Origin: Fidelibacterota bacterium
GTDB taxonomy: Bacteria; Fidelibacterota; UBA8477; JABMPR01
NCBI GenBank assembly: GCA_018673925.1
Contig: JABHBL010000015.1
Span: 1-64,000, forward strand
Direction of reading: 5' to 3'
Length of the DNA: 64,000 nt
Under the pieces are notes generated by a model that searched no databases, was not told where the DNA came from, and saw only the letters and a list, made by a program, of their open reading frames with translations. The translations under genes and the position numbers were made by a program. Positions 1,842 to 42,977 of the stretch are shown here, piece by piece. The stretch's first letter is position 1, and each line of letters begins with the position of its first letter.

Positions 1842-4592
1842 TTACTTCAGGTAGGTGATCTTTTCCAGAGTACCCACGCTCTTGCCATTCACTAGTAATC
1901 TGGCAAAATATACACCACCTGCCAGGCTCCCCGAAGGTTCCCAGCTCATACTGCCTGACTGTTGTACCTCGATGGTTTCAACGAGACCACCACGGATATT
2001 CATGATATATAACAGGCCTGTCTCACTGGTTGCCATATCGATGTCAAATTGAATGGCTGGATTAAAAGGATTGGGGTAACTCGAACGAATACCTGAAGTT
2101 TCCGGCACTTCAAGTGAGTTTCCAATATTTGAAGTCGTGGGTGCATTCATCCAGTCCAGTAGCCGTACTATGACTTCCCCGCGGGAAGCGTCAGTTTCGC
2201 TCCCAAAATGAGTTAATGCTTCCAAACCAAATCCTAGCATCACCGAGGAGTAAGTATCATTTTTTACAGATGATCCAGCTGATGCGCCACCCAGGAAGGG
2301 GTACATGAATATGGATGATCCTCCCTCAAGAATATTGTATGAGTCTGATGCAATCTGATTGTTCGCAGCATCCGAACTCCCAATGGCAAAGCGATCATTG
2401 ATATCAAAAAACTCATGTCCTGGATCTCCATATACATTTGGCGTGCTGATATCATCTGCAATTAAATCCACAGCAAAATAGTCGATCAAGAGATTCTCAA
2501 CGGAAAGATCGCCGCTGGCCATATTTTGACCGGTCATCAGGATATTCCCACCCCCATCCAGATAATCGGCTACAAGAATGGTACTATTTTCACCCAGTGG
2601 TGCCGGATTATCACCGCTAAACCAGATAACTGCTGGAAAATCATCCAACCATTCCAAATCAGGCAATGGCCTTTCCTCAAGGTCCCAAACCACATGAACA
2701 AGTTCAGCTGATTCCAGGGCATTGGTGAAGTAGGCCTGGTAATCTGTAGCTCCTTCTAGAACACCATCATCATCAATGAGTACAATTTCAGGAAGACCCA
2801 ATAATAGCTCAATATGTTGTATTTCTGGCTCTGTGATTTCGTCAGATGAAAAACTTATCTCAAAATAAACTGGACCAGGTGACAGCGTGTCGCTGATATT
2901 AAATTCGAAAGCCTGGTTGGATGTGCTGGTTGCCAAAAAATCGATGGGGTTGAATTCAATGACTCCCCCAACGATATCCACTGCATTACCCTCTATCGAC
3001 AAGGTTGCTGTAGCATTGTTGGCCATGGCTCCCGTATTCTCTACGATAAGCCATATCATCACATTTTCTCCAGGAGCAAAAATGTTGTCTCCATTGAAAT
3101 CAGAGACAAGCATGTCAGTGATTCTCAGGTGGGGATTGGATTCATGAACTTCAATATCTGCCCACATGGTATTCTCTGAATCTGAGATGTTAAGAAGGGC
3201 TACTTCAGTATTTACACCTCCCCAGCCAATGGAAGTTGGAATGGTTTCAAAGTCAAAATTCCGGTTATTTGTAGAGCCAGGCCAACTGTCGCCACTATTG
3301 GACCCATTGAAATGTCCATCGGCAGCTTTGACGTCAACCATGCGGTGATTTTCATTGCTGTTGGTAGTTCTGGAGTTGTCTATATGCCAGATAACCAGAC
3401 CCGTACCAGGTAAGTGCTGTTCAGAACCAATTCGTTGTCGATTCTCGATGAGGTAATATTCCTGGCCAACATCCTGCCCATGGCTATAATTTCCAATAAA
3501 TGGATCCAACTCGCCATGAGTCCATAGTTTAACAGCAAAGGAGTTCTCCTCAGCGTTAGGGAATTCAAAATTTTGGATATTCTGGTTAGGCATTATTGGA
3601 ATAGTCCATCCCAGCATTTCCTTACACCAGGCGGATAAATGCACGGGACTGGAAGCAGAACTCCATGAACCACTGGCCATAAGACACCAGCTTCCAACAC
3701 CATCAGATGAATAGTCTGTATCATATAGATCAGGCAAACCTAATGCATGCCCAAATTCGTGCGAAAATACACCAATTTCGATGAGGCCCCCACTTCCCTG
3801 ACTACCGCCAGCGACAGCAGGTTGCATGATGTAGTCCTGAACTTTAATCGGTTGACCATTGAAACCAGTATCATTGGTCGCATATTTTGCGCCTGTACCA
3901 GAAGCAGAGGAATAAACCCATCTATGAGACCAGATTGAAGGTCCACCAGATTCTCCCCCCCGACCAGAATGAACAAAGAAAGCTGCATCTACATCGCCAT
4001 CATCATCACCAGAATTGGGGATTCCATCCGGGCCATCATTATCATATTGTGTGAAATCTATTTCCAGATCAGCCTGATTAAGCGACTCCGTTAAAAAATC
4101 TCCGACTCCGCCAGGGGGCTGAAAGAAACCATTGTCATATTCACCAGGTACTTGAGAACCCTCATAATATTCGCTTTCATGACCTAATTCATACCAGCCA
4201 TAGACCGTTCCTGATAAATGATATTGACCGTATGACATTTGCTCATAATGCTCTGCCATTGTTATTGTGGGCCAGGGACCATCAAACAACTCCTGTTGTA
4301 GTTGTTCAATTACATTCTGATTGTCATCAGAGTCAGTATATGATCCCAAAATAACTGGGAAACTACCATAGACATCTTCTCGAAGGTCTCGAGTACCATT
4401 TGCTGCAGCTTGAATATTGGCCGCCTTTACCCTTTGCATTTTTGCTGCTAAACCACCCTGGGTATAGGACTCAGACATGATTTCGAGTTGCAGTTTCACC
4501 TTTTCAGAAGGAATGACACCGGGTTTTGCTGGGATTGAACCCAGAGCTATTGTGAGTATGAGAATGTGCGCTGAAATGAGTCTGTATATCAT
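1842..4592 (-). CDS. Secreted M6-family metalloprotease with T9SS sorting domain
   Basis: 916 residues with an N-terminal signal peptide (about 1-22). The catalytic region resembles immune inhibitor A (peptidase family M6): the zinc motif HEFGHALGLPD lies at residues 278-288, preceded by an Asp-rich, probably calcium-binding stretch (about 183-203). Beta-rich, CARDB-like and other ancillary domains follow. The last ~80 residues begin with Ser-Tyr-Pro-Asn-Pro-Phe-Asn-Pro and end in a short beta-sandwich, the type A sorting domain used by the type IX secretion system. The protein is therefore probably exported across the outer membrane to degrade extracellular protein. AGGTCAAAC precedes the ATG. 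Family and secretion route are well supported; substrate is unknown. Confidence 0.92.
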   Translation of the reverse strand: MIYRLISAHILILTIALGSIPAKPGVIPSEKVKLQLEIMSESYTQGGLAAKMQRVKAANIQAAANGTRDLREDVYGSFPVILGSYTDSDDNQNVIEQLQQELFDGPWPTITMAEHYEQMSYGQYHLSGTVYGWYELGHESEYYEGSQVPGEYDNGFFQPPGGVGDFLTESLNQADLEIDFTQYDNDGPDGIPNSGDDDGDVDAAFFVHSGRGGESGGPSIWSHRWVYSSASGTGAKYATNDTGFNGQPIKVQDYIMQPAVAGGSQGSGGLIEIGVFSHEFGHALGLPDLYDTDYSSDGVGSWCLMASGSWSSASSPVHLSAWCKEMLGWTIPIMPNQNIQNFEFPNAEENSFAVKLWTHGELDPFIGNYSHGQDVGQEYYLIENRQRIGSEQHLPGTGLVIWHIDNSRTTNSNENHRMVDVKAADGHFNGSNSGDSWPGSTNNRNFDFETIPTSIGWGGVNTEVALLNISDSENTMWADIEVHESNPHLRITDMLVSDFNGDNIFAPGENVMIWLIVENTGAMANNATATLSIEGNAVDIVGGVIEFNPIDFLATSTSNQAFEFNISDTLSPGPVYFEISFSSDEITEPEIQHIELLLGLPEIVLIDDDGVLEGATDYQAYFTNALESAELVHVVWDLEERPLPDLEWLDDFPAVIWFSGDNPAPLGENSTILVADYLDGGGNILMTGQNMASGDLSVENLLIDYFAVDLIADDISTPNVYGDPGHEFFDINDRFAIGSSDAANNQIASDSYNILEGGSSIFMYPFLGGASAGSSVKNDTYSSVMLGFGLEALTHFGSETDASRGEVIVRLLDWMNAPTTSNIGNSLEVPETSGIRSSYPNPFNPAIQFDIDMATSETGLLYIMNIRGGLVETIEVQQSGSMSWEPSGSLAGGVYFARLLVNGKSVGTLEKITYLK

Positions 4593-21250: not shown

Positions 21251-21367
21251 AATAAATTGGTCTATAGTATAAGCTTCAGATTGGTTTAATTCACGGTAAA
21301 AACGTCGCTGTTTTGACCTGATATCACATCATGTTTGAATGACTGGTGCCAATGGTAGGCAAATAAA

Positions 21368-21827
21368 TGGGTGGATCTATAAGCCGGATTCTGTCTTACC
21401 CTCCAAGGAGGATGAGGCAGCCATTGATCTGGATCTCCATTTGCATGGAGATACTAGCTTTCTACCCGAAGAGTTTCATCTTGCAATGAATGGCGGACCA
21501 CCATGCTCTTCTGCTTGAAATTGCTCCAATTGGGGTTTACCCCCAGCATCAGTTACCTGACACCGGCGTGAGCTCTTACCTCACGTTTTCACCCTTACCA
21601 GCCTACGCTAAAGCTTCGGCTGGCAGGCCCGATAATAAATTATGGCCTGCCGACCGAAGGCTATTTTTCTGCTTTGCTGAAAAATAGCGTAGGTTGGCGG
21701 TATCTTTTCTGCGGCACTTTCCATCTCTACCCAAAGGTAAAGTCCCATGCTCCTAACATGGGCAACCTGTCCTGCGGAGTCCGGACTTTCCTCCCAGCTA
21801 ATGCCAGGTGACTGCCCAATCCACCCA
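21368..21827 (-). ncRNA. rnpB: RNase P RNA (class A), enlarged P12
   Basis: On the minus strand the RNA opens with TGGGTGGATTGGGCAGTCACC and has the conserved GGAGGAAAGTCCGGAC (P3/P4 region). It then shows CTGCCCATGTTAGG-type helix elements, ATACCGCC before P12, GGTAAGGGTGAAA after it, and GACAGAATCCGGCTTATAGATCC closing P4/P1. This is the catalytic RNA that cleaves pre-tRNA 5' leaders. At about 460 nt it is long, mainly because P12 carries ~92 extra bases (see separate entry). No obvious terminator is seen to its left. Confidence 0.96.
21602..21693. repeat. Nested palindromic insertion in RNase P RNA helix P12
   Basis: CCTACGCT (21602-21609) pairs with AGCGTAGG (21686-21693). AGCTTCGGCTGGCAGGCC pairs, with one mismatch region, with GGCCTGCCGACCGAAGGCT. 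One arm carries an additional inner palindrome ATTTTTCTGCTTTGCTGAAAAAT (21663-21685). The whole replaces the short P12 stem-loop between ATACCGCC and GGTAAGGGTGAAA. P12 varies in length between species, so function should be kept, but the sharply palindromic, GC-rich, nested make-up suggests insertion of mobile palindromic repeats. Confidence 0.75.
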
Positions 21828-40869: not shown

Positions 40870-41121
40870 TTTAATTCTCCTTAAATGTTATGAAATGAGT
40901 CATGCATAAAATTTGCCAAAGTGGTTTATTCTGCCATGAAATGACGGTCTCTAAATCTAGGTCATATTTATTGGGTTCATACTCCAGAATAGAAACATTT
41001 TGTTCAGGATTAATTCAGACTAGATTCAGCACTGACACTGGTAAAAGCTGCTATCCGTGTGGATGAGTAGTTTGAAATAAAAGCTTCATTTAATTGAGGT
41101 CCACTTATTCTCTCAGCTGCC

Positions 41122-41194
41122 AGACCTACGTTTATTAATAAATATGGTCTCAAGCCGACACGGTTTTCTTGGAAATGAGGAAATCTGCTCCCGT
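41122..41194 (+). promoter_or_regulatory. Structured leader, two hairpins upstream of the fusion gene
   Basis: AGACC (41122-41126) pairs with GGTCT (41146-41150), enclosing TTTATT/AATAAA. ACGG (41160-41163) pairs with CCGT (41191-41194), enclosing TTTTC/GGAAA around TTGGAAATGA. The hairpins lie 56-128 bp before the start codon within a 380 bp non-coding region. They could form a riboswitch or attenuator; I cannot match a known class with confidence (a weak resemblance to the Moco motif was considered). The remainder of 40870-41249 shows nothing else. Confidence 0.4.
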
Positions 41195-41245
41195 ATTTGG
41201 AAAGAGAAGATATGTTGTTTATAAAGATTTATCCACATCTGGTTA

Positions 41246-41264
41246 ACCGATGAGCTTTATCGGT
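41246..41264 (+). promoter_or_regulatory. Hairpin containing the start codon of the fusion gene
   Basis: ACCGAT (41246-41251) pairs with ATCGGT (41259-41264) across a seven-base loop. The ATG at 41250-41252 lies within the stem, and no Shine-Dalgarno precedes it. This would hide the start codon in the mRNA, allowing translational control or pointing to a leaderless-type start. Confidence 0.5.
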
Positions 41265-42977
41265 AACAAAAACCTTTCGCAAACTGATGCAAAGGTACTC
41301 CCTGATATCTGGCTCAAAGCCGCCATGCTTGGCAGTCTCTGGGCATCCATAGAAATCATTCTAGGTAGCTTTCTCCACAATTTGCATATCCCGTTTTCAG
41401 GGACATTCCTGGCATCTGTGGGTCTGATCCTTATGATCAATGGTTACAAGTTATGGCCAGTCAAAGGGCTCTTCTGGCGGACTGCTCTTGTGACCGCTGC
41501 CATGAAGTCAATCTCGCCTTCAGCTATCATTTTTGGACCCATGATCGGCATCTTTATGGAAGGTATCATCCTGGAAGTTATGGTGCGTCTTTTCCGCCGT
41601 AATTGGCTTGGTTTTGTTCTAGGTGGGGCTCTGGCAGTTTCCTGGAGTCTGTTTCAAAAAATATTTGTGCTTCTTATGACCTATGGCCCCGATTTCGTCA
41701 AGCTGTATGAACAACTCTATTTCATGGCATCCAGGAGTTTTGGTTTTGAAGGAGATGCACCCTTTGATCTTGTGCGAGCAATATTCATTATTGATTTAAG
41801 TTTTGGTGCACTGGTGGCTGGCTTGTCCTACAGGAAAATCCGTTCTCAGAGTTCAATCTCATTTCCAGAATCGAAATTTGAGGCTGCCCCAAAGAAAGAG
41901 AATCTCTTAGTAGCATCCGCAACACAGTCATATTCAGTTCTCCTTTTCCTGGTGAATTTGATCGTCCTCATCCTGGGTCTTGCCTATCTAAGTGATATAT
42001 CAATCTCTATAGGTGGTGTTTTGGTTCTCACATATGTCACCGTCAATATTTTCAGGTATAACCGCTCTTTAAAACGCTTGAAACGACCCCAACTCTGGAT
42101 CCAACTCATTGCCATGATGGGATTATCTGGTCTTCTTTTGGGGGGTTGGGATAGCACGGCTTCACTTCTGATTGGACTTGAAACCGGTATTGCCATGGCG
42201 ATTAGAGCCTTATTGGTGATTTTTGCCTTTTCCGCCCTGAGCATTGAGATGAGAAATCCTGCCATAATTGGCTGGTTTACACGGCTGGGGATGGGAGTGC
42301 TCTTCGATTCAATATCTCTGGCTTTTGAAGTCTTACCACGTCTATTGAAACGAGTGTCCGAAATCGACCGCATCTGGAGGCACCCATTTCGCACTTTAAG
42401 CCAGCTACTAGCTGCACTAGAAGATCTGCGTGTGGAGCACCATTCAGAAAATCCCAGAGTCATCATTTTAACAGGCAATCCAGGTGATGGGAAAACCAAT
42501 ATGATTCAAGCCCTGATCAGGAATGAGAGCTTGAGGGAAATTGATTTTCATGGTTTTTATTCCAGGGGTGATTGGGTAGAGAATGAAAGAGATGCCTATC
42601 ATATCGTAGATATTCAAAGCCATGCATCTGAAACTCTGTGTGAGCGTAAAGCGCCAGCCTCAGAATGGCAGGCAGGACCCTTTAATTTTCGACGTCCCGG
42701 GCTTGAATTTGGCTGTAAAGTTCTAAACTCAATTCCCCCGCAGAATTCAGGAAGTATTGTAGTAATTGATGAAATCGGTCACCTCGAGTTGAAAGATCAA
42801 GGTTGGGGTCATTGTATGAGTGACCTGGTCAAGAATAAGACACGGATGATTTGGACGGTTCGCCCCAGCCTTCTCGATGCCGTCATTGCCAAATGGGGTT
42901 TAGACTACAAAGTCTTTGATGTTAAAAAATTTACGGAAGCACAAATAAGTAACTCTATCAGATCATTTCTGATCTAG
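41250..42977 (+). CDS. ECF-transporter-like membrane protein fused to THEP1-type NTPase
   Basis: 575 residues. Residues about 20-195 hold five to six membrane helices and resemble an ECF-transporter substrate-binding (S) component. Residues about 225-370 hold four or five more helices and then a basic/hydrophobic segment (LPRLLKRVSEIDRIWRHPF) that resembles the coupling helices of an ECF T component. Residues 401-575 are a P-loop domain of the THEP1/NTPase_1 family: Walker A TGNPGDGKT and Walker B IVVIDEIGHLEL. All three are in one open frame without frameshift. The natural reading is a vitamin or cofactor uptake protein with a built-in NTPase; the substrate is unknown. Domain assignments to S and T components are by helix pattern, not by firm motif. 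Confidence 0.65.
   Translation: MSFIGNKNLSQTDAKVLPDIWLKAAMLGSLWASIEIILGSFLHNLHIPFSGTFLASVGLILMINGYKLWPVKGLFWRTALVTAAMKSISPSAIIFGPMIGIFMEGIILEVMVRLFRRNWLGFVLGGALAVSWSLFQKIFVLLMTYGPDFVKLYEQLYFMASRSFGFEGDAPFDLVRAIFIIDLSFGALVAGLSYRKIRSQSSISFPESKFEAAPKKENLLVASATQSYSVLLFLVNLIVLILGLAYLSDISISIGGVLVLTYVTVNIFRYNRSLKRLKRPQLWIQLIAMMGLSGLLLGGWDSTASLLIGLETGIAMAIRALLVIFAFSALSIEMRNPAIIGWFTRLGMGVLFDSISLAFEVLPRLLKRVSEIDRIWRHPFRTLSQLLAALEDLRVEHHSENPRVIILTGNPGDGKTNMIQALIRNESLREIDFHGFYSRGDWVENERDAYHIVDIQSHASETLCERKAPASEWQAGPFNFRRPGLEFGCKVLNSIPPQNSGSIVVIDEIGHLELKDQGWGHCMSDLVKNKTRMIWTVRPSLLDAVIAKWGLDYKVFDVKKFTEAQISNSIRSFLI

Follow-up and report, generated by a model that had tools for sequence, protein, structure and literature searches.

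A likely ECF-derived uptake system for Mo/W-pterin cofactor, fused to a THEP1 NTPase, in bacteria with molybdoenzymes and without Moco synthesis genes

We analyzed a 64,000-nucleotide stretch of DNA from a Fidelibacterota bacterium (contig JABHBL010000015.1), referred to as the window, in which a single gene joins two membrane regions related to the S and T components of ECF transporters with a C-terminal THEP1 NTPase domain. We consider it likely that the product of this gene is an inner-membrane uptake system, derived from ECF transporters, that brings a Mo/W-pterin cofactor (Moco or Tuco, or else metal-free molybdopterin) into a Moco auxotroph. The cofactor is the likely substrate because a Moco riboswitch lies directly 5' of the gene and Moco synthesis has been lost, two features that the initial annotation had overlooked. 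We name the substrate a Mo/W-pterin cofactor, and not Moco alone, because the riboswitch is of the type without a P3 stem, which has been linked with the tungsten cofactor (Regulski et al., 2008, PMC2408646).

The fused frame and its three parts

The initial annotation had described a single 575-codon frame with three parts, S-like, T-like and a THEP1-type domain with its Walker motifs, and the frame was found exactly so. The features of the locus, all on the forward strand, are listed below.

41098-41222, forward strand: Moco/Tuco riboswitch aptamer (RF01055), type without the P3 stem, found with cmscan
41250-42977, forward strand: one open reading frame of 575 aa, S + T + THEP1
41304-41831, forward strand: S-component region, residues 19-194, six helices (AlphaFold; Foldseek, and weak PF09819 matches in relatives)
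41937-42443, forward strand: T-component-like region, residues 230-398, coupling motifs degenerate (hhalign, and TIGR02454 in split relatives)
42456-42974, forward strand: THEP1 NTPase domain, residues 403-575 (PF03266; Foldseek matches 2i3b and 1ye8)
42471-42497, forward strand: Walker A motif TGNPGDGKT, residues 408-416
42762-42791, forward strand: Walker B motif VIDEIGHLEL, residues 505-514

Within the genus, 18 other genomes were searched and 15 of them have the three-part fusion at full length (57-91% identity); in the four same-genus loci that were read the fusion is flanked by a rubrerythrin gene and an acetyl-CoA synthetase gene. Recurrence at full length between constant flanks rules out both a chance reading frame and an assembly join, the latter also by the 15 independent fusions; the earlier proposal of a natural fusion is upheld. 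Relatives (G001, G019 and G020-G022) divide the parts between two genes that adjoin or overlap, one S-like with about 200 codons and one for T-THEP1 with 370-385, and this split arrangement recurs in about a dozen more distant genomes, usually with overlap. Because the same parts are two genes in relatives, with S directly 5' of T-THEP1 in the split loci read, the two-gene arrangement is, judging from the sequences, probably the older form and the window frame a further fusion. A T-domain profile search of 245 genomes of the phylum (Candidatus Neomarinimicrobiota/Marinimicrobia) detected the domain in 33 genomes from 11 genera, and every intact T frame was long enough to include THEP1. A plasmid search for relatives of S and T found none.

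The AlphaFold model of the 575-aa fusion (mean pLDDT 84.8, pTM 0.73) consists of six helices at residues 19-194, a helical block at 230-398 and an alpha/beta NTPase at 403-575. When the entire model was used as the Foldseek query, THEP1 alone was recovered; the remaining hits, to large membrane proteins, were fortuitous. Pfam and NCBIfam likewise gave no usable match to the membrane region of the window protein, and the families to which its two parts are related were visible only in the split relatives.

For the S region, a split homologue was modeled from a 30-row alignment (pLDDT 94.3, six helices), and the best four PDB matches of this model in Foldseek were all ECF S components, with YkoE at the top (5edl, probability 1.00, TM 0.61), followed by TmRibU, a folate ECF chain and the S component of 4huq. 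YkoE is an S component of the thiamine pathway. The YkoE-type family PF09819 gave weak matches in 4 of 15 members of the S family, none reaching the cut-off; the best of these (E 1.7e-4) is far from the window protein, which itself gave no match. A PDB profile search with the S alignments returned nothing meaningful, and only the fold search worked. By this model and these matches, the S region has the ECF S-component fold and is distantly related to ECF S components. A second S-like paralogue of about 198 aa, here S', was observed right after a TonB-dependent receptor at L086:5561-6142, L146:6174-6770 and L151:5909-6511, behind a Moco riboswitch and once followed by MobA; it may act as a partner S for this cofactor.

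For the T region, the split T family was aligned by hhalign with the canonical CbiQ of a Chloroflexi locus, L168 (E 3.2e-10, probability 96.7), itself a member of PF02361 (E 4.3e-13), whereas the S family, used as a control, gave E 0.34 against the same protein. The fused T matched the split T at E 6e-10 and gave no match when compared directly with CbiQ; the split T matched the CbiQ of the phylum weakly (E 6.5e-4), the firm link coming through L168. TIGR02454 (CbiQ) matched 5 of 14 split T members (best E 2.9e-4) and PF02361 matched two (best E 9.2e-4). By these profile comparisons the T region is a distant CbiQ/EcfT relative, and the S-like and T-like assignments of the initial annotation both hold as distant ECF kinship, through Foldseek for S, hhalign for T and weak family matches. 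An ECF T component requires two x-R-x coupling motifs, which the window T does not provide: in the alignment, the first is kept in most split T proteins (AR-Y) and lost in the window T, and the second is absent from the T family at the point where THEP1 starts. The window genome has a single CbiQ-type gene (L174:7916-8755), which has unrelated genes on both sides and no EcfA beside it.

The THEP1 assignment was reached directly. Pfam NTPase_1/THEP1 (PF03266) matched residues 405-569 with E 1.4e-15 (58 bits against a cut-off of 23.9), and the fold in the fusion model matched 2i3b and 1ye8. The Walker A residues G409, G412, G414, K415 and T416 and the Walker B residues D507 and E508 are invariant in 15 fusions. 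The C-terminal domain is thus a THEP1 domain with intact Walker motifs, which may hydrolyze NTP.

The riboswitch and the absence of Moco synthesis genes

The RF01055 aptamer scored 41.6 bits (gathering score 36; cmscan E 1.9e-7, or 1.7e-6 over the whole window) and is the one riboswitch found in the window with Rfam. It lies in the 5' leader and ends 27 nt 5' of the ATG at 41250. At the same place it exceeded the gathering score in 15 of the 16 same-genus fused loci, the sixteenth (L017) scoring 32.2 bits (E 9.5e-4), and unguided RNAalifold folding of 15 leaders recovered the riboswitch stems, with compensatory changes in 9 of 30 pairs. RF01055 also precedes operons with a TonB receptor and S', with or without a following S-T-THEP1, in G077, G014 and G081, as well as the S-T-TonB-THEP1 operon of Gemmatimonadetes and the Chloroflexi operon; the P3 stem is missing from all these riboswitches except the Chloroflexi copy. 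A permissive search of seven split loci (L032, L035, L036, L084, L085, L089 and L092) found no riboswitch.

Longer ORFs at L003-L016 begin about 30 codons before the start used here, with a conserved N-terminus, MEMRKSAPVFGKR, that arises from translating the riboswitch RNA; the likely start is therefore the ATG at 41250. Such read-through is a trap for gene callers. Elsewhere in the window, at 21364-21827 on the reverse strand, lies a class A RNase P RNA with a long insertion (239.5 bits). Riboswitches of the RF01055 class act by repression. The aptamer is predicted from its position to control the gene, and from the known mode of its class we infer that the protein would be made when the cofactor pool is low.

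The S family was found in 57 of the 245 genomes, 56 of which have genes for PF20256, the Mo subunit of the XDH family. Any of the synthesis proteins MoaA (PF06463), MoaE (PF02391) and MoeA (PF03453) was found in 3 of these 57 genomes (G015, G018 and G072), in contrast to the PF20256 genomes without S, where 66 of 86 have at least one. Fisher's test of S against the synthesis genes gave 3.9e-5 by genus and 1.9e-18 by genome, the latter value ignoring kinship, which inflates genome-level statistics since genomes of one lineage are not independent. The same opposition appears within genus g76, where G224 and G225 have S-T-THEP1 and no MoaA, whereas G222 and G223 have MoaA and no S. Across the phylum, then, S tracks the loss of Moco synthesis. 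The window genome shows the pattern of a Moco auxotroph, enzymes present and synthesis absent: it has four PF20256 and three PF01568 matches, with XDH-type enzymes in two operons, and a search with PF06463, PF02391 and PF03453 found no MoaA, MoaE or MoeA. Its completeness of 90% is not the explanation because the absence of synthesis genes is common to the whole genus.

Neither S nor synthesis genes were found in 20 PF20256 genomes, 17 of them among the 121 with a strong match. These seventeen, which include G013, G030, G043, G048, G058 and G239, may have another route or be incomplete assemblies. In G015 and G072, S occurs together with MoaA and MoeA, and a cluster of MoaA and a MOT1-like transporter (L154:7514-11897, L156) is kept alongside S-T-THEP1; G015 has 6% contamination.

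Genomic neighborhoods, the role of THEP1 and the substrate

Within the phylum, S and/or T-THEP1 adjoin MobA (G020-G022, G080 and G081), MocA and XDH (G224 and G225), Mo-pterin oxidoreductases and a two-component system (G001, G071 and G079) or a TonB receptor (G077 and G221). The S gene of families f6, f9 and f13, whose product has an extra C-terminal helix, lies between the XDH FAD subunit and a DUF364-XdhC-THEP1 block. These are purine-breakdown operons (L037-L043 and L147-L149) with XDH, MocA, XdhC, 8-oxoguanine deaminase, a PLP enzyme and DUF364; they carry S and a free THEP1, with no T gene detected in the operons, nor anywhere in the f6 and f9 genomes. In other phyla, the Chloroflexi locus L168 has the order THEP1, double ABC ATPase, S, PF00174 lipoprotein, CbiQ, MobB (E 1.4e-39), MoeA. 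The Elusimicrobia locus L171 has a TonB receptor, a TsaA-like gene, a double ABC ATPase, S, T-THEP1 and a methyltransferase, followed by XDH genes; Gemmatimonadetes L169 has S, T, a TonB receptor and THEP1; and in Bacilli L173 S lies beside XdhC. The L168 lipoprotein (3779-4225) carries a stand-alone molybdopterin-binding domain of the sulfite-oxidase type (PF00174, E 1.9e-10) inside an ECF operon, and is a candidate extracellular Moco-binding protein.

No ABC ATPase adjoins the gene in the window, as had been noted initially, or in the phylum loci read. In L171 and L168, a double ABC ATPase (EcfA-A' type) adjoins the same S and T alongside THEP1. Since a full ABC ATPase is present there as well, THEP1 is unlikely to have begun as a motor, and it is unlikely that it replaces the ATPase in Elusimicrobia and Chloroflexi. 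The earlier suggestion of a self-contained cofactor transporter therefore stands in part: cofactor transport is the best reading, whereas THEP1 is only one candidate for its motor. For this phylum, three arrangements are conceivable: energy coupling passed to THEP1, an EcfA supplies it in trans, or the S-T unit functions with no ATPase. That THEP1 replaced the ABC ATPase in the phylum, giving a one-chain, ABC-free ECF importer with THEP1-driven Mo/W-pterin uptake that was fused where T lost its second ABC-coupling motif, we regard as doubtful. MobB-like handling of the arriving cofactor is a better guess for THEP1 than a motor, and a more tentative proposal than cofactor uptake itself. Two related ideas were set aside: T-THEP1 as MobB, given that profile matches to MobB (PF03205) and DUF2478 were weak and below cut-off, and MobB loss as an explanation for THEP1, which was uninformative because few genomes anywhere in the phylum set have MobB.

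If the gene is a cofactor importer, a shortage of cofactor would leave the riboswitch at 41098-41222 empty and permit expression. In loci with a TonB receptor, that receptor would carry the cofactor across the outer membrane. The cofactor would then be bound by S and passed inwards, with T holding S and coupling its movement. On the cytosolic side, at the exit, THEP1 would bind NTP and most likely receive or process the cofactor like the P-loop protein MobB. With the cofactor pool full, the riboswitch would close.

A different substrate, inorganic molybdate or tungstate taken up by an ECF system of the metal type that Moco regulates by feedback, is in our view unlikely. CbiQ-type T components serve Co/Ni uptake, in keeping with a metal-type system. 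Moco riboswitches are, moreover, known before molybdate transporters as well as Mo enzymes (PMC2408646). However, 54 of the 57 S-bearing genomes lack MoaA, MoaE and MoeA, and the oxyanion alone could therefore not become cofactor. The S fold, too, is nearest to YkoE, which belongs to the thiamine pathway, and then to RibU and the folate-ECF chain, while the TonB receptor, the molybdopterin-binding lipoprotein and the XdhC, MocA and MobA neighbors point to a pterin. Uptake of a purine (xanthine, urate or a relative) to feed the XDH pathway, as the place of S in the purine-breakdown operons of f6, f9 and f13 might suggest, is very improbable: the window gene and the split loci as a rule lie outside purine operons, with MobA, Mo oxidoreductases or a TonB receptor nearby, the riboswitch class senses cofactor, and S is missing from XDH genomes that make Moco. 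The slow NTPase activity of THEP1, the degenerate coupling motifs and the lack of an adjacent ABC ATPase would suit a membrane-bound sensor or chaperone, dependent on NTP and inactive in transport, that supplies cell-made or stored Moco, but this hardly fits the kinship of S and T to ECF parts, the double ABC ATPase adjacent to them in two other phyla, or the absence of synthesis genes, which leaves no cell-made Moco to deliver.

Comparison with known systems

According to the prevailing view, cells that need Moco must make it themselves (PMC9793310). For 305 bacteria, Peng et al. (2018, PMC6147048) found molybdoenzymes but no Moco pathway and left this unexplained, suggesting unknown synthesis parts or Mo-independent forms; Marinimicrobia were listed as not using Mo. 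Our search of the open-access literature found no bacterial Moco importer and nothing on a THEP1-ECF system or an ECF transporter of molybdopterin or Moco. The gene described here is probably the missing importer of the molybdenum cofactor in bacteria that lost its synthesis. If so, it would explain hundreds of bacteria with molybdoenzymes and without the pathway (PMC6147048), make Moco a shared 'vitamin' of microbial communities, provide the first clear pathway for THEP1 proteins, and possibly represent a new way of powering ECF transport.

The gene resembles ECF transporters in its six-helix S fold, its CbiQ/EcfT-related T, the adjacency or fusion of the two and, as we infer, a cofactor-type substrate; it differs in having S, T and THEP1 in one chain with no ABC ATPase beside it, in a T without the second coupling motif, and in S and T regions that exceed no sequence-family cut-off. 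It shares with THEP1/NTPCR proteins (PF03266; 1ye8, 2i3b) a whole domain with Walker A and B, which is fused to a transporter T in every intact T frame seen in the phylum, whereas it is free-standing in Chloroflexi, Gemmatimonadetes and f6/f9. Like MobB (PF03205) and DUF2478 proteins, T-THEP1 contains a P-loop NTPase adjoining Moco genes, but its matches to those families fall below cut-off. As in the known RF01055 regulon, the aptamer is above threshold, sits in the 5' leader and has covarying stems. The known members control molybdopterin (MPT)/Moco synthesis, Mo/W uptake or Mo/W enzymes (PMC2408646), whereas the window riboswitch, in which P3 is absent, precedes an ECF-like fusion found in genomes that lack the synthesis genes. 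With the orphan-molybdoprotein organisms of PMC6147048 the window genome shares molybdoenzyme genes in the absence of the Moco pathway; what distinguishes the present case is that an import route for the cofactor can be proposed.
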